The translations under genes and the position numbers were made by a program. The notes below the pieces were generated by a model, which had not been told where the DNA came from, ran no database searches, and saw only the letters and a list, made by a program, of their open reading frames with translations. Of a stretch of DNA of 41,015 nucleotides, positions 15,685 to 20,751 are shown one piece after another. Numbering within the stretch: the first letter of the stretch is position 1; each line of letters starts with the position of its first letter. Source of the stretch: Shackletoniella antarctica (GTDB lineage Bacteria; Cyanobacteriota; Cyanobacteriia; Phormidesmidales; Phormidesmidaceae); assembly GCA_003241845.1 (NCBI GenBank), contig QBMN01000016.1:1-41015 (forward strand), written 5' to 3'.

Positions 15685-17073
15685 TTAGCGCGGCGTCAGC
15701 TGAGACGAGGGCTGATAGACAGTCGGCTGATCGTCAAGATCAGGATTTAGCAGCCCTGACCCCAGAGTAATTTTAGTCGGTATTGTGGGCAGGCTCATGC
15801 CCTGCTGTAGACCCATCACCATCAGGCCCAGAATTTCGACCAGTTTTGGATCCCACCGCTGGCCCGCTTCGGCCTGACAGGTGGCCAAAACTTCGCCTAG
15901 GGCGGCGGTGTTGTTGTCGGTGGGCGGGCCGTGGCGGGCCTCGGCCACCCGGTGTTGAAACTCGGCCACCAGGCTCAGCATGCGCGATTCGAGGGGTACG
16001 GCGTCGCCCTCTAGGCCAGCGGGGTAGCCGCTGCCGTCCCAGCATTCGCCCTGGTGGGCAATGATGGCGGCGATCGCCCGCATGCGGGGCATCAGCCGCA
16101 GAGCCTGCACTTCAGGCATCAGCGGGCAGCTGGGGCCATCGCCCGTAAGGTTGGCCACGACGGGGGCGGGGGCAATGCGGTGCAGCATGCCCGCCAGCCG
16201 CAGCCGCTGCATCTGCCACGCGGGCAGATCGAGCAGCTGGCCCATCATTTCGAGCAGTGACACCACTTCACTGGCGGCTAGAGGGTTGACCGGGTCGCTA
16301 AGATCCACCAGCTGGGCCATGCGCAAAAATGCTTGCAGCTCGTTGGAGAAGAGGTTTTGATCGAGGTCGTCTACCAGGCTGAAGGCCAGGTTGCCCTTGA
16401 GGTCGTTGCGGCTGTTTTGTAGGTAATGCACCACCTGGGCGACGGTGTGGCTGACAGCGCTAGACTCTTCGCCGCGCAGAGCCGGGCTTTGCTGCTTGAG
16501 GGTGCCGAGGTGCTCGGCTAGCTGAGCAGCCAGAGCAGGGTTGTAGCGATTGACGTGGGCGATCGCCAGCTCTACGGTTTCGCTCACCAGGGCCGAGTCA
16601 AAGGTCCAAAAGCCATAGAACTTGCGCTCTAGGTCGTGCTCGGGCACCCCGGCTTTGCCGTAGTCGGCCACCGACAGTTCCTGGCAGAGCACCATGGCGG
16701 TGTAGTCGGGGGAAAGAATCATCAGGTGCCACTCTTCGGCCACCGGGTCGTCGTCAGCCAGGTCAACCAGGGCGACATTCTCGCGCTGGCTGGTGGGATG
16801 ATCGTGAAAACCCGCTTCAGGGGAAGCCATGATCACAACTTGCTCAGCTTTGTCAGCGATCGCGCTGTAGCGATCAGCCTCTTCTAAATACCACTTGCCC
16901 CGCTGAAAGGCCGTGATCACCAAGGGAGCTGAGCCAGAGGTCAAAATGCAGTCTTCGAGGGCGTGGCAGAGGGCGACCAGAGTATTTTTGTAGTAAACGC
17001 CGTAGTTAAGGGGTGTAGTGTCTGGCTCGCCGCGACCGTCTACCAACAGCTTGAGTATTGACCCGTCTAGCAT
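15685..17073 (-). CDS. DICT sensory domain protein with degenerate HD-GYP domain
   Basis: A 462-residue signalling protein. Residues about 25-150 match the DICT sensory domain found with GGDEF, EAL, HD-GYP and HTH modules. Residues about 265-430 look like an HD-GYP domain: the GYP segment Trp-Asp-Gly-Ser-Gly-Tyr-Pro (345-351) and Pro-Leu-Glu-Ser-Arg are kept, but the metal-binding His-Asp is His298-Arg299, and the double His before the GYP loop is Ala-His340. It is therefore probably not an active c-di-GMP phosphodiesterase and may bind a ligand or partner. The next co-directional gene upstream is 80 bp away. The domain reading is confident; loss of catalysis is inference from motifs. Confidence 0.85.
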   Translation of the reverse strand: MLDGSILKLLVDGRGEPDTTPLNYGVYYKNTLVALCHALEDCILTSGSAPLVITAFQRGKWYLEEADRYSAIADKAEQVVIMASPEAGFHDHPTSQRENVALVDLADDDPVAEEWHLMILSPDYTAMVLCQELSVADYGKAGVPEHDLERKFYGFWTFDSALVSETVELAIAHVNRYNPALAAQLAEHLGTLKQQSPALRGEESSAVSHTVAQVVHYLQNSRNDLKGNLAFSLVDDLDQNLFSNELQAFLRMAQLVDLSDPVNPLAASEVVSLLEMMGQLLDLPAWQMQRLRLAGMLHRIAPAPVVANLTGDGPSCPLMPEVQALRLMPRMRAIAAIIAHQGECWDGSGYPAGLEGDAVPLESRMLSLVAEFQHRVAEARHGPPTDNNTAALGEVLATCQAEAGQRWDPKLVEILGLMVMGLQQGMSLPTIPTKITLGSGLLNPDLDDQPTVYQPSSQLTPR

Positions 17074-17153
17074 TTCAGCCCTCTATCTGACCCTTACAAC
17101 CCGCACATTTAGGATGATAACGCAGCTCGGGAACAGAGGGGGGACAGCACTGC

Positions 17154-18185
17154 TTAGCCCAGTAACTCTGCGATCGCCCCCCGGATAAATTCCTCATCCT
17201 CTGGGTTTTGGTAGGGGTTGCCCGCCCGGTGGCCCCAGATCGACGGGATGGGGCGGTACTCGGCGTTGGGCATCAGCGCCGCCTCGGCCTCGCAGTCTTC
17301 TGGGGTGAAATATAGGTCGGTGGTGGCGGGCATAACCAGGGTTTTGGCCGTAATCGACGCCATTGCCCGGTTGTAGTCGCCCTGGTACACCGGGTTATCG
17401 CCCAGGTCGCAGCGCAGCCAGGTGTCGATCATGGCCAGCAGGTTGTGGGGGTCGCGCTGGCGGTAGCCCGCCTCCCAGGCTCGCGAAATGTAGTCTTCGA
17501 GCGAGGCGTAGCCCCAGGCCAGGTAGGGTTTGGCCCGGTAGTAGGCCTGGCTGGCGGCCCAGCTGGCATAGATCTGGGTAAAGGTGTGAAAGCCGCGATC
17601 GGGGGTGGCCTCAAACCGTTCGCCATTCCAGGCTGGGTCGCTGGTGAGGGCCGCCCGCAGGCTGTAGAGAAAGAGTTTGTTGTGGTCGGTGGTTTTGGCG
17701 GTACCGCAGAGGGCGGCTAGGCGCTGCACCCGGTCGGGGTAGAGCGCCCCCCAGTGGTAGCCCTGCTGCGCCCCCATCGACCAGCCGTAGACCAGGGCCA
17801 GTTGCTCAATGCCTAAGGATTCTATCAGCGCCAGCTGGGCGCGCACGTTGTCGTAGTGGGTGAAGTAGACGCCGGGCTTGGCCACCGCCGGGCAGTTGCT
17901 GGGCGAGGCCGAGAGGCCGTTGCCAAACATATTCACCATCACCACACACCAGCGGCTGGGGTCGAGAATGCCGCCGAGGCGCACCAGCCAGTCGACATCG
18001 GTGTGCTGTGCCCCGTAGGAGGTGGGGTAGAGAATGACGTTGGTGCACTTTGCGGAGCGTTCTGCCCCAGAACCGCTATTCAGCTCGCCATAGATCTGGT
18101 AAACCACCTCGACCTCGGGCAGCACAACGCCGCACTGGAGCGGAAATTTTTTGAGCACAAACCGCCCTGGCGTTGCCATACCCAT
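17154..18185 (-). CDS. MetX-like alpha/beta hydrolase
   Basis: A 343-residue alpha/beta-hydrolase resembling homoserine O-acetyltransferase (MetX). The triad is visible: nucleophile Ser136 in Gly-Trp-Ser-Met-Gly, Asp290 in Ala-Thr-Thr-Asp-Leu-Tyr-Phe, His319 in Trp-Gly-His-Arg-Ala-Gly-Asn-Pro. The oxyanion region Tyr-Pro-Thr-Ser-Tyr-Gly-Ala-Gln-His and Asn-Met-Phe-Gly-Asn-Gly-Leu-Ser are typical of this MetX-like side group, which is often annotated only as hydrolase. It lacks methionine-pathway neighbours. Its ATG overlaps the desaturase stop as TAATG, so translation is probably coupled; a second ATG lies two codons in. An acyl-transfer or ester-hydrolysis role on a lipid or desaturase product is conjecture. 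Confidence 0.88.
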   Translation of the reverse strand: MGMATPGRFVLKKFPLQCGVVLPEVEVVYQIYGELNSGSGAERSAKCTNVILYPTSYGAQHTDVDWLVRLGGILDPSRWCVVMVNMFGNGLSASPSNCPAVAKPGVYFTHYDNVRAQLALIESLGIEQLALVYGWSMGAQQGYHWGALYPDRVQRLAALCGTAKTTDHNKLFLYSLRAALTSDPAWNGERFEATPDRGFHTFTQIYASWAASQAYYRAKPYLAWGYASLEDYISRAWEAGYRQRDPHNLLAMIDTWLRCDLGDNPVYQGDYNRAMASITAKTLVMPATTDLYFTPEDCEAEAALMPNAEYRPIPSIWGHRAGNPYQNPEDEEFIRGAIAELLG

Positions 18186-19132
18186 TAGATAAACTCCGCC
18201 ACGATGCCGCGATTGACCCGCACATAGCCCGCATCAACCCGCTCGAAGTAGGGTTTGAGCTGCTCGTGGGCCACGGGCAACTGCTGAAACGGAATTGACG
18301 GGTACAGGTGGTGCTCGGCGTGGAAGGGCATGTTCCACATGATCCAGCGCAGGGGCCAGAGGGTGAGGGTGGTGCGAGTGTTGATCAGGGGGTTGTCGCT
18401 ATGGGGGCAGCCGGTGTGCTCGGCCAGCAGCACAAACCGCAGCACCGGCTGGCCCACCGCCAGGGGCAGCACCCAGTAGGTGAGCAAAAACCACGGATGC
18501 CCCAGCAGGGTAGAGACCGCAATGATCGCCCCGTAGGTGAGCAGCTGGAGGCGCAGCGATCGCACCACCTCAGCCCAACCGCTTTGAGGAATGTAGTAGC
18601 AGTCGTCTAGCTGCCCGAGGGCGACTTTGCTGTGGCCGCGCACCTTGCCCAGCCACCAGGGCATGCCGCTGAGCTGCCAGAGGTAGTCGCCCAGACTCTC
18701 GGGCTTGGGGTCGTCTAGCTCTGGGTCTTTGCCCGGAATTTGGGTGTAGCGGTGGTGCCACTTGTGGTAACGACGGTAAAAGGTGCTGTTGTAGAACGAC
18801 AGCAGCCCCGCCAGCCAGGCCGCGCCGTCATTTAACCGGGGGTTGGCAAAGGCGGTGCGGTGGCAGCACTCGTGCATGGCACAAAACATCAGCGCTAGAC
18901 TGGCACTGCAGACCAGCAAAGCGGGCAGGGCCAGCCCCAGCGGGGCCGTGCCCCACAGGTAGCCACTCAGGGCGATCGCGCCCAAATGGCCCAAAAACCG
19001 CACGGCCCCGGCCCCGTTTGACCGCTGGTTGAGGGAGGCTAATGCCGCTGCCGATAAAACCTGGCGCGGTTGACTGGTCAACGAACCCAGTTTGGCAGCC
19101 GGCTCGGCAGCAGGTGTAGTATTCGTAATCAT
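18185..19132 (-). CDS. Fatty acid desaturase family membrane di-iron enzyme
   Basis: A 315-residue integral membrane desaturase/hydroxylase. The three histidine boxes of the fatty acid desaturase superfamily are intact: His-Glu-Cys-Cys-His (87-91), His-Lys-Trp-His-His (123-127) and His-Ala-Glu-His-His (271-275), with an additional His at 238. Hydrophobic pairs flank them. The first box with two cysteines differs from the His-Asp-x-x-His of the classic DesA/DesB/DesC enzymes, so the substrate may not be an ordinary membrane acyl chain. It overlaps the MetX-like gene by one base. Its 5' region holds a perfect palindrome shared with a divergent GntR gene, suggesting regulation of this pair. Confidence 0.9.
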   Translation of the reverse strand: MITNTTPAAEPAAKLGSLTSQPRQVLSAAALASLNQRSNGAGAVRFLGHLGAIALSGYLWGTAPLGLALPALLVCSASLALMFCAMHECCHRTAFANPRLNDGAAWLAGLLSFYNSTFYRRYHKWHHRYTQIPGKDPELDDPKPESLGDYLWQLSGMPWWLGKVRGHSKVALGQLDDCYYIPQSGWAEVVRSLRLQLLTYGAIIAVSTLLGHPWFLLTYWVLPLAVGQPVLRFVLLAEHTGCPHSDNPLINTRTTLTLWPLRWIMWNMPFHAEHHLYPSIPFQQLPVAHEQLKPYFERVDAGYVRVNRGIVAEFI

Positions 19133-19291
19133 GGTTAACGTTCTGGTAAAAATGCTTGGGCAACATCAGACAATTGAAAAATGGGAAGCAGCCCGATTGG
19201 GCAACGCCCCAGGATCTCAAACCACCTTTCCCCCAACGACCCGTTAGCCAAAAAGGCCAGCAAAACGACCCCCTTTCAACAGCCACTCTTA

Positions 19292-19307
19292 ACTTGTTAT
19301 AACAAGT
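19292..19307. promoter_or_regulatory. Perfect 16-bp palindrome, probable GntR/HutC operator
   Basis: ACTTGTTATAACAAGT is self-complementary over all 16 bases. It lies between the divergent desaturase and GntR genes, about 160 bp from the desaturase start and 76 bp from the regulator start. HutC-subfamily operators are commonly AT-rich palindromes with TTGT/ACAA arms, so the site fits. No binding data. Confidence 0.65.
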
Positions 19308-19382
19308 GAGCTTAGCACATTTGCCAGGGCGTGACCAATCCGCCTCTCACCACGCCCGCCGCCCGTTAATCACTGCCTGACT

Positions 19383-20105
19383 ATGGCTACTCCATTACAC
19401 ATCACCATTTCAGAAAAGCTGCGCCACCAGATTGAACTGGGGCAGTACCAGGCGGGCGATCGCCTGCCCAGCGAGCACCAGCTGATGGAAACCTTTAGCG
19501 TCAGCCGCATTACCGCGCGGCAGGCAGTGGCCAACTTGGTCAGCCAGGGGCTGGTGATCGCCTACCGAGGCAAGGGCGTTTTTGTCACTCCGCAAAAAAA
19601 AGTCACCTATTCTCTCTCTAGCCCGCTGGTGTTTCTAGAGCAAGACATGACCCGCCAGGGGGTGGCCTTTTCCTTTGAGAACCTAGCTTTTGAGGTGGTG
19701 CCGGCCCCCGCCGAGGTGGCGGCTGCCATGCAGATTTCCCAGCCGTCTGAGGTCTATCTGCAAAAAAAACTCCTGCGGATGGATGGGGCGGCGGGCGCTG
19801 TGGATATTTCTTACCTCATGGCTGACCTGGGCCAGCGGTTTGCCCCCCAGCTCAAATACCAAATGACGTTTCCCACCCTGGCCCAAAACGACATCCCGAT
19901 CGACCGCCTAGACGGGTTGATCGAGTGCACCCACGCTGACTACGACCTCAGCGGTTATCTGGAGGTGCCCCTGGGCCATGCCCTGATGGTCTATCGCTAC
20001 ACCGCCTACTCCAGCGACCAGCAGCCCGTGCTCCACGGGGCGACGATTTCGCGGGCCGATCGCTTTTGCTATTCCCTCAGCACCCGCTCTAGCGGGGTGA
20101 CCTGA
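19383..20105 (+). CDS. GntR-family (HutC subfamily) transcription regulator
   Basis: A 240-residue regulator with an N-terminal GntR winged helix (residues 1-75: Gly-Gln-Tyr-Gln-Ala-Gly-Asp-Arg-Leu-Pro-Ser-Glu, Val-Ser-Arg-Ile-Thr-Ala-Arg-Gln-Ala-Val) and a UTRA ligand-binding domain (about 95-235). UTRA domains sense small molecules such as urocanate, amino sugars or fatty acids and release DNA on binding; this ligand is unknown. It diverges from the desaturase gene with a perfect palindrome between them, so autoregulation and control of the desaturase-hydrolase pair are likely. The ATG at 19383 lies two bases after a TGA and has no strong Shine-Dalgarno. Confidence 0.93.
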   Translation: MATPLHITISEKLRHQIELGQYQAGDRLPSEHQLMETFSVSRITARQAVANLVSQGLVIAYRGKGVFVTPQKKVTYSLSSPLVFLEQDMTRQGVAFSFENLAFEVVPAPAEVAAAMQISQPSEVYLQKKLLRMDGAAGAVDISYLMADLGQRFAPQLKYQMTFPTLAQNDIPIDRLDGLIECTHADYDLSGYLEVPLGHALMVYRYTAYSSDQQPVLHGATISRADRFCYSLSTRSSGVT

Positions 20106-20229
20106 GAGAGAATGGCCCATGTCCCCCGTGATAGTCGATCGCCTGGGTATCGTTCATGCTGACTATGTATGGGTGGCAACATTCTCAACAGCCGCCCGTC
20201 GTTACTAACGTCATTGGCCAGAGGTTCCC

Positions 20230-20751
20230 ATGAAGCAGCGTATATTTGCGGCAGTTGCCCTAACTTGCCTGGGGCTAAGCGCCCTGGCCCTCAGCCCTGC
20301 CCATGCTGCCGAGCGGGTGCGCCTCAACTACCGGGGCTTTAGCCGCACAGTGCCGGTGCCTCTGCTGGTCTTGCTGGCTGAAACAGGCGAATCCTCTGGG
20401 GTGCTGGGCGGGTTGCTCAACCAGGCGGGGCAAGATGGGGGCGAACTGCGATCGCTGCTCACCCGCCCGCTCTCCGCCGACCCCGTCGTGCTCGATCTCG
20501 CCATCAACAGCCTCCCCGGCGATTGGGTGCTCGACTACCTAGGGCAATCGATTCATACCGGCACTGGCGAAGCCGACCGTCAGGCGCTGCGATCGGCCCT
20601 GGTGCTCTCCGCCAGCGACGACAAGCAAATCACTCTGCTAGAGGTGCTGCAAAACTACCCCACCGAAGAAGTCGTGCTAGAGGGCGACAATATTCAGGCT
20701 GCATACAGCAGGTTGTCCAGCTTTCTGCAACCCCTCTCGATTTTTCTATGA
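20230..20751 (+). CDS. Secreted stand-alone DUF1400 protein
   Basis: A 173-residue protein with a cleavable signal peptide (cleavage expected after Ala-His-Ala at about 26) and a DUF1400 region: Val-Arg-Leu-Asn-Tyr-Arg-Gly-Phe-Ser-Arg-Thr-Val-Pro-Val, then Leu-Asn-Gln-Ala-Gly, Leu-Thr-Arg-Pro-Leu and a helical C-terminus. In cyanobacteria DUF1400 usually precedes an alpha/beta-hydrolase domain in a much longer protein; here only the N-terminal part is present and ends with its own stop. It may be a natural short form or a split hydrolase. It follows the GntR gene by 124 bp on the same strand. Confidence 0.82.
   Translation: MKQRIFAAVALTCLGLSALALSPAHAAERVRLNYRGFSRTVPVPLLVLLAETGESSGVLGGLLNQAGQDGGELRSLLTRPLSADPVVLDLAINSLPGDWVLDYLGQSIHTGTGEADRQALRSALVLSASDDKQITLLEVLQNYPTEEVVLEGDNIQAAYSRLSSFLQPLSIFL

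Follow-up and report, generated by a model that had tools for sequence, protein, structure and literature searches.

Genes and features of the locus

A 41,015-nucleotide stretch of the genome of the cyanobacterium Shackletoniella antarctica (contig QBMN01000016.1), which is referred to as "the window" in this study, carries a gene for a GntR/UTRA regulator that diverges from two overlapping genes, encoding a membrane di-iron oxygenase and an alpha/beta hydrolase. The 250-bp gap between the divergent regulator and oxygenase genes holds a single perfect palindrome. The features are located as follows.

17154..18185, minus strand: gene for an alpha/beta hydrolase, MetX-like, PRK07581 subfamily (343 aa; NCBIfam 440.5 bits)
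18185..19132, minus strand: gene for a MocD-like membrane di-iron oxygenase, labelled fatty acid desaturase in other annotations (315 aa; Pfam FA_desaturase 146 bits)
19292..19307, no strand: perfect 16-bp palindrome ACTTGTTATAACAAGT, the proposed operator of the GntR/UTRA regulator
19308..19319, minus strand: TGTGCTAAGCTC, adjoining the operator on the flank farther from the oxygenase gene, a possible (weakly assigned) -10 element of the oxygenase promoter
19383..20105, plus strand: gene for the GntR/UTRA regulator, a proposed ligand-relieved repressor (240 aa; Pfam GntR and UTRA)

The initial annotation of this locus had noted both the palindrome between the oxygenase and the divergent UTRA regulator and a one-base overlap of the gene pair, and both descriptions are accurate. 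On the minus strand, the oxygenase stop codon (TAA, 18187-18185) and the hydrolase start codon (ATG, 18185-18183) share one base within the sequence TAATG (18187-18183). The overlap, or a near-overlap, is kept in relatives: counting the window, 63 loci carry both genes, and the hydrolase start overlaps the oxygenase stop in at least 34 of them, with a gap of no more than 60 bp in 56.

The regulator had been recognized as a UTRA protein, and it scores above the Pfam cut-offs for both GntR (65.9 bits) and UTRA (65.1 bits). It is below the NCBIfam equivalog cut-offs for PhnF (107.2 vs 156.8 bits) and HutC (89.2 vs 220 bits), as well as for TreR and the others listed. Its domain architecture is that of PhnF, HutC and YvoA, with YvoA being the best solved match and PhnF the best NCBIfam match. 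However, those regulators control genes for the use of phosphonate, histidine or N-acetylglucosamine (GlcNAc), and the predicted targets of the window regulator are unlike these. Frame breaks or an in-frame stop are apparent in some draft genomes, affecting the regulator gene in Leptolyngbya RL_3_1 (L060/L088) and in G014 and the oxygenase gene in L043 (G035); they reflect either decay or sequencing error.

The palindrome as the proposed operator of the regulator

The loci used for comparison were 80 named loci, the best 80 of 114 found, which lean to close kin. Many of them are on the same contigs as the loci from genomes carrying G handles, so the two locus surveys are not independent. A GntR relative (tblastn E <= 1e-20) adjoins the oxygenase gene in 35 of the 80 loci in addition to the window, showing that the genes co-occur in relatives.

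Within the window, ACTTGTTATAACAAGT is the sole match when up to three mismatches are allowed, with 0.03 expected by chance. Conservation of the palindrome upstream of orthologues had been set in advance as a test, and it held. With two mismatches or fewer and within 320 bp, the palindrome is present in all 36 GntR-adjacent oxygenase loci, 30 of which are exact to ACTTGTYATRACAAGT, as compared to only 3 of the 45 oxygenase loci without an adjacent GntR gene (L089, L106 and L135). Shuffled controls upstream of the oxygenase yielded 0/720 and 1/900, and in the GntR-adjacent loci conservation drops outside the 16 palindrome bases. Because GntR-flanked loci occupy three places in the oxygenase tree, in which part of the deep branching has weak support, and because their regulators reach down to about 50% identity with the window GntR, the palindrome has probably been conserved by function.

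A 14-base core of the palindrome was then counted in 57 genomes. The exact core occurs at 43 sites versus one for the reversed control, although site counts in relatives share ancestry. The exact operator and a GntR gene are found together in 24 genomes and are both missing from 27, while five genomes have GntR only and one, G003 (86% complete), has the operator only; thus, 51 genomes agree (Fisher p 4e-10, uncorrected for kinship). The 29 GntR-positive genomes include four (G026, G031, G033 and G076) with only a paralogue of 41-42% identity. When GntR proteins of at least 53% identity alone are counted, the values become 22 with both, 29 with neither, three with the operator only and three with GntR only. 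From these comparisons, we take the palindrome to be the operator of the GntR protein, with a predicted scattered regulon.

Other genes behind the operator

Allowing one mismatch, the core matches six sites in the S. antarctica genome, as compared to one for the reversed control.

Site 1: oxygenase/GntR locus of the window
Site 2: upstream of a glutamine synthetase (GS)-like gene that is followed by a formamidase-like gene
Site 3: upstream of a glutamine amidotransferase gene
Site 4: between PhyH-type dioxygenase and binding-protein-like genes
Site 5: upstream of an acyl-CoA-dehydrogenase-like gene
Site 6: over the start codon of a DUF1989-GcvT gene

A similar set emerged from the 43 exact sites: 21 are at oxygenase/GntR loci, 14 precede the GS-like gene and one lies between the PhyH-type and binding-protein genes, so that 36 sites precede one of these three. 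Two others lie between genes for a betaine-type transporter and a GbcA-like Rieske protein, and five (L198, L207, L212, L214 and L217) have no sensible target.

The operator is also kept at orthologous genes within the genus. All 13 GS-like orthologues with upstream DNA carry it (10 exact, three with one mismatch); a contig fragment lacking the gene start (L318) is outside this count. It precedes all 14 of the binding-protein orthologues fetched (one mismatch each; a fragment in G014 is not among the 14) but none of 16 paralogues. For the amidotransferase gene, it was found in 18 of 20 cases with one or two mismatches, the misses being G002 and G015, genomes without GntR. The Tdm-like (DUF1989-GcvT) gene scores 799 bits against the trimethylamine N-oxide (TMAO) demethylase model, whose cut-off is 1100. 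Its site recurs with two to three mismatches in 11 of 11 cases but lies over the start codon and the first codons, where coding constraint alone could keep it. Judging from their predicted products, the remaining genes that follow this operator are concerned with amines or nitrogen.

Several observations concern the surroundings of these genes. The exact cores between GbcA-like Rieske and BCCT betaine-type transporter genes are at about 3533 in L216 (G033) and about 3553 in L218 (G026), and in G033 a 42% paralogue of the window GntR is encoded about 4 kb from that site. A primary-amine (copper) oxidase gene follows the PhyH and acyl-CoA-dehydrogenase-like genes in L291 (5099-7108), L292, L294 and L296; only the L291 gene was scanned, and the other three were named by a near-identical N-terminus. 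An ammonium-transporter gene is present behind the Tdm-like gene in L168 (3727-5121). The family-3 binding protein of the regulon (L170, 2249-2998) has no obvious signal peptide on reading its sequence, so it may act in the cytosol, as an enzyme or a buffer, and not belong to a transporter.

The oxygenase

In the initial annotation, the oxygenase was a three-box di-iron desaturase with an unusual first box, His-Glu-Cys-Cys-His. The three histidine boxes are present (H87/H91, H123/H126/H127 and H271/H274/H275), and all eight histidines are invariant in 40 aligned orthologues, but the identity as a lipid desaturase did not hold up, since the boxes are those of the MocD group. Chi and colleagues separated this cyanobacterial group as "hydrocarbon oxygenase (MocD)" in 2008, and Table 3 of their paper gives its boxes as HECXHRTAFA, F(Y/F)RRYHXWHHRXT and MWNMP(F/Y)HXEHH(L/F) (PMC2593844). 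The window protein fits all three, and the full strings are matched by 24, 30 and 32 of the 40 orthologues, respectively. The first box is thus an ordinary HX3H motif. As HECXH is the first box listed for the group, HECCH is diagnostic rather than unusual; its first Cys is kept in 32 and its second in 12 of the 40 orthologues. Three genes in the same table (gll2501, syc2378_c and tlr1254) coincide in position with the orthologues in Gloeobacter (G069), S. elongatus 6301 (G087) and Thermosynechococcus (G086). Judging by the named relatives of its oxygenase, the window is from a cyanobacterium of the Nodosilinea type; the highest identity to the window protein in the oxygenase tree, 84%, is that of Nodosilinea nodulosa PCC 7104.

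The models for lipid desaturases were missed by a wide margin (DesA 39 bits and DesB 29 bits, cut-off 500), the next match within the same genome is only at E 4.9e-4, and PDB sequence searches with the oxygenase gave no match. A predicted structure (mean pLDDT 87.3) aligned to AlkB with Z 13.3 (root-mean-square deviation, rmsd, 4.3 over 257 residues) and to the stearoyl-CoA desaturase SCD1 with Z 7.1 (rmsd 4.7 over 190 residues). Among enzymes of known activity, the modelled fold is therefore nearer to AlkB than to stearoyl-CoA desaturase, which is support but not proof, as middling Z values are common.

This enzyme family has precedents for work on polar amines, namely MocD in rhizopine catabolism (PMC2593844 and PMC10107442) and GntB, the guanitoxin L-arginine hydroxylase (PMC10367076). 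MocD proper, the demethylase of the rhizopine 3-O-methyl-scyllo-inosamine, has mocE/mocF partners, whereas the window oxygenase is accompanied by a hydrolase and, elsewhere, by a ligase resembling gamma-glutamylmethylamide synthetase (GmaS). Neither the surroundings of the window oxygenase nor two annotated plasmid regions from cyanobacteria showed mocE/mocF or rhizopine genes; the remainder of the genome was outside this search. GntB (NF041365), which acts on a polar amine, is the best NCBIfam match of the oxygenase. The "desaturase" is probably an amine-processing oxygenase and not a lipid enzyme.

The hydrolase and the ligase

The hydrolase had been described as MetX-like with an intact triad. 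Alignment to solved relatives confirmed the triad (Ser136, Asp290 and His319) and the NCBIfam comparison assigned the subfamily, as the protein passes the PRK07581 cut-off (NF005757, 332 bits) but misses those of MetX by far (TIGR01392, 99.7 vs 500 bits; PRK00175, 96.6 vs 331 bits); on these cut-offs, the function of a MetX homoserine O-acyltransferase was rejected. Its best solved match is 5e4y, and the triad is common to this structure and 5d6o; these we take to be the acetylester hydrolases MekB and CgHle, their PDB name being homoserine O-acetyltransferase. In contrast to MekB-type systems, no Baeyer-Villiger partner adjoins the window hydrolase.

In cyanobacteria beyond the genus, the surroundings of the oxygenase gene often include a type III GS gene: it is within about 4 kb in 26 of the 80 named loci, and in 23 it directly follows the hydrolase gene. 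All four genes, for GntR, oxygenase, hydrolase and GS, occur together in five loci (L129, L131, L136, L145 and L149). The best solved match of the type III GS is 7CQL (612 bits), identified as RhGmaS in PMC7948447. According to that paper, GmaS has catalytic Asp177, Glu186 and Arg312, while Ala48 and Trp300 replace ammonia-site residues of GS. These positions were located manually in the alignment (chain numbering minus 20), and each of the five residues was found in 26 of 26 type III GS proteins, after seven misses of the strict pattern had been read individually; in L114, the Lys30 region is unmatched. The ligase behind the gene pair is therefore GmaS-like in its best match and key residues, although it adjoins the pair in other cyanobacteria and not in the window. 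The activity that defines GmaS is the ATP-dependent ligation of methylamine to glutamate.

Other genes accompany the unit in some loci. GS3b and iron alcohol dehydrogenase (FeADH) genes adjoin it in L086 and L089, with an aldehyde dehydrogenase (ALDH) gene as well in L089. In six Pseudanabaena-type loci (L125, L134, L139, L140, L142 and L143), a creatininase-family gene replaces GntR, divergent from the oxygenase gene; it is within 1.5 kb in five of them and about 5 kb off in L142.

Operator position and an NtcA-type box

A consensus sigma-70 scan of positions 16900-20300 found no promoter. The Nodosilinea-type loci compared have a stretch similar to TGTGCTAAGCTC. By eye, the operators are at or just below likely start regions, and in Pleurocapsa loci they come right after TATAAT-like stretches; these positions fit repression.

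All 13 promoters of the GS-like gene (L305-L317) have a GTA-N8-TAC box that ends two bases before the operator; the box is about 75-122 bp from the gene, on its upstream side, and its inner bases vary. Shuffling produced such a box in 49 of 700 cases, the L318 stretch being among those shuffled. We take GTA-N8-TAC to be the NtcA consensus, which in an NtcA-activated promoter stands upstream of a -10 element. The GS-like gene is possibly under the joint control of NtcA and GntR. The same box is about 40 bp before the operator in five of the 19 oxygenase promoters covered, out of 36 GntR-adjacent ones, namely in L129, L145, L149 and L151 (one clade) and in L097.

Proposed regulon and alternative explanations

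Most likely, with a probability of about 0.72, the GntR protein is a ligand-relieved repressor of a regulon for scavenging nitrogen from amines. UTRA domains bind small molecules. We infer ligand-relieved repression because of this property and because the operator positions fit repression. The protein would act as a local repressor on ACTTGTYATRACAAGT at the divergent promoter of its own gene and the oxygenase gene, and at several other promoters, until released by an amine-related small molecule, and the controlled genes would scavenge nitrogen from organic amines. From the operon order and the chemistry, we infer the reaction order oxygenase, hydrolase, ligase: the MocD-like oxygenase would hydroxylate or dealkylate a small amine-bearing substrate; the PRK07581-type hydrolase would cleave an ester or related bond next to the amine; and gamma-glutamyl ligases, GmaS-like and related, would capture the released amine in the form of a gamma-glutamyl amide. 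A class-I amidotransferase may then take off the glutamyl group in the manner of PuuD. The PhyH-type dioxygenase and the binding-protein-like, acyl-CoA-dehydrogenase-like and formamidase-like proteins might handle these amines or similar ones. For the GS-like gene, nitrogen shortage (through NtcA) and substrate (through GntR) would both be needed, since the operator adjoins the GTA-N8-TAC box.

Our leading guess for the substrate is N-methylated or other short amines. Hints of N-methyl compounds include the GmaS-like ligase, the betaine cluster with a core site (G033), the creatininase contexts, the Ruegeria setting described below and the TMAO-demethylase-like gene, a possible but inconclusive operator target. 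GntR regulons, MocD-like oxygenases, MekB-like hydrolases and GmaS are each already known. Literature searches on the regulon and the oxygenase, with most subscription journals outside their scope, gave no description of their union under one cyanobacterial operator; nor was any cyanobacterial pathway for this gene set found in the same literature, in agreement with the initial annotation. Tentatively, cyanobacteria may have an undescribed regulon, under the dual control of GntR and NtcA, that lets them live on N-methylated or other short-chain organic amines, in which a new oxygenase-esterase entry step, carried out by the MocD-like enzyme and the MekB-like hydrolase, frees a primary amine for a GmaS-like ligase. 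If so, oxygen-evolving phototrophs would be consumers, and not only sources, of methylated amines, and if these are indeed the substrates, this would bear on who takes them up in fresh and sea water. In addition, what was a local oddity becomes a regulon open to testing: its operator is defined, its target promoters number at least four, and it comes with candidate enzymes and possibly a nitrogen switch. The results also argue that a family whose members carry the annotation "fatty acid desaturase" throughout the phylum should be given another label.

Several results weigh against such a regulon. Concerning the regulator, G028, G059 and G080 carry a GntR of 53-55% identity yet no exact site, and the sites in G026 and G033 accompany the 42% paralogue. 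Regarding the targets, the operator before the acyl-CoA-dehydrogenase-like gene is present in only two of 10 cases, although three of these have no more than 30 bp of DNA upstream, and this gene was rejected as a direct target; it lies behind PhyH in L291, L292 and L294, and PhyH shares the binding-protein operator. The data do not support the GS3b-FeADH-ALDH genes of S. antarctica as direct targets, the closest operator being 1.6 kb away and separated from them by an open reading frame (ORF). No NtcA-type box is present in the 250-bp intergenic region of the window, in any of 14 binding-protein promoters or in more than one of 18 amidotransferase promoters. As for the enzymes, six of the 36 GntR-adjacent loci have no hydrolase gene next door (L090 of these at a contig end), and the oxygenase exceeds no NCBIfam cut-off, its GntB match reaching only 56.3 bits against 380. 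By a wide margin, the modelled fold is closest to 8xks_K (Z 24) and 8xqw_M (Z 22), which belong to chloroplast motor complexes, are not amine enzymes and offered no clue to function. Moreover, nine of the 80 loci, of the Nostoc type, have the oxygenase with no hydrolase, GS or GntR gene nearby (L127 and L148 end soon after), and in T. vestitus the hydrolase match behind the oxygenase covers only 95 residues at 40%. These partnerless cases suggest that the oxygenase may have another, older job.

The initial annotation proposed a ligand-induced lipid-modifying unit and, as speculation, an acyl transfer; on this view, a true acyl desaturase would be followed by an acyl-transfer or lipase step. 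Membership of the oxygenase in Pfam FA_desaturase, its predicted membrane fold and the acyltransferases among MetX relatives are in keeping with this, but its boxes are of the MocD group and not the Delta9/Delta12 ones, AlkB is nearer than SCD in the fold comparison, the hydrolase falls short of the MetX equivalogs while passing PRK07581, and the remaining assignable operator targets are nitrogen or amine genes. We consider lipid desaturation very unlikely and have abandoned it together with the acyl transfer. Even less credit is due to the idea that the palindrome serves only to autoregulate the GntR/oxygenase pair, the other sites being due to chance or belonging to a paralogous regulator. 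It is true that a GntR paralogue of 40-43% identity exists in several genomes, near the betaine-cluster core in G033, and that it is carried by five of the 14 genomes in which an exact site precedes the GS-like gene. However, eight of those 14 have the window-type GntR alone at the cut-off used (G003 has neither), the excess of sites over the control is 43 to 1 and the amidotransferase-gene sites are absent from both GntR-less genomes.

The catabolism of polyamines or ethanolamine instead of methylated amines, through gamma-glutamylation by a ligase, ADH/ALDH oxidation and then an amidotransferase, as in the Puu pathway, is unlikely, but it deserves more weight than the two preceding alternatives. 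Type III GS, FeADH, a succinic-semialdehyde-dehydrogenase-like ALDH and a PRK07053-like amidotransferase co-occur, and a primary-amine oxidase gene is close by in relatives. Nevertheless, the ligases reach only 217-263 bits against the gamma-glutamylputrescine synthetase cut-off of 650, the type III ligases are closest to GmaS, and the betaine and creatininase settings speak for N-methyl compounds.

Neighbouring genes and plasmid regions

Downstream of the GntR gene, the window carries a DUF1400 gene (20230-20751), whose place beside GntR is conserved in 10 of the 80 named loci, each of them from a close relative. In L166 (4363-5895), one ORF joins a pyruvate-formate-lyase-like part, which begins well inside the model, to an acetyltransferase domain. 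Among eight plasmid regions (two cyanobacterial and six proteobacterial), the gene settings in proteobacterial relatives are suggestive only: the hydrolase-oxygenase pair is beside an iron alcohol dehydrogenase gene in L298 and L303, a GntR gene of Phyllobacterium (L297) is beside biotin genes, and the Ruegeria plasmid region (L300) has a methylated-amine-like setting.

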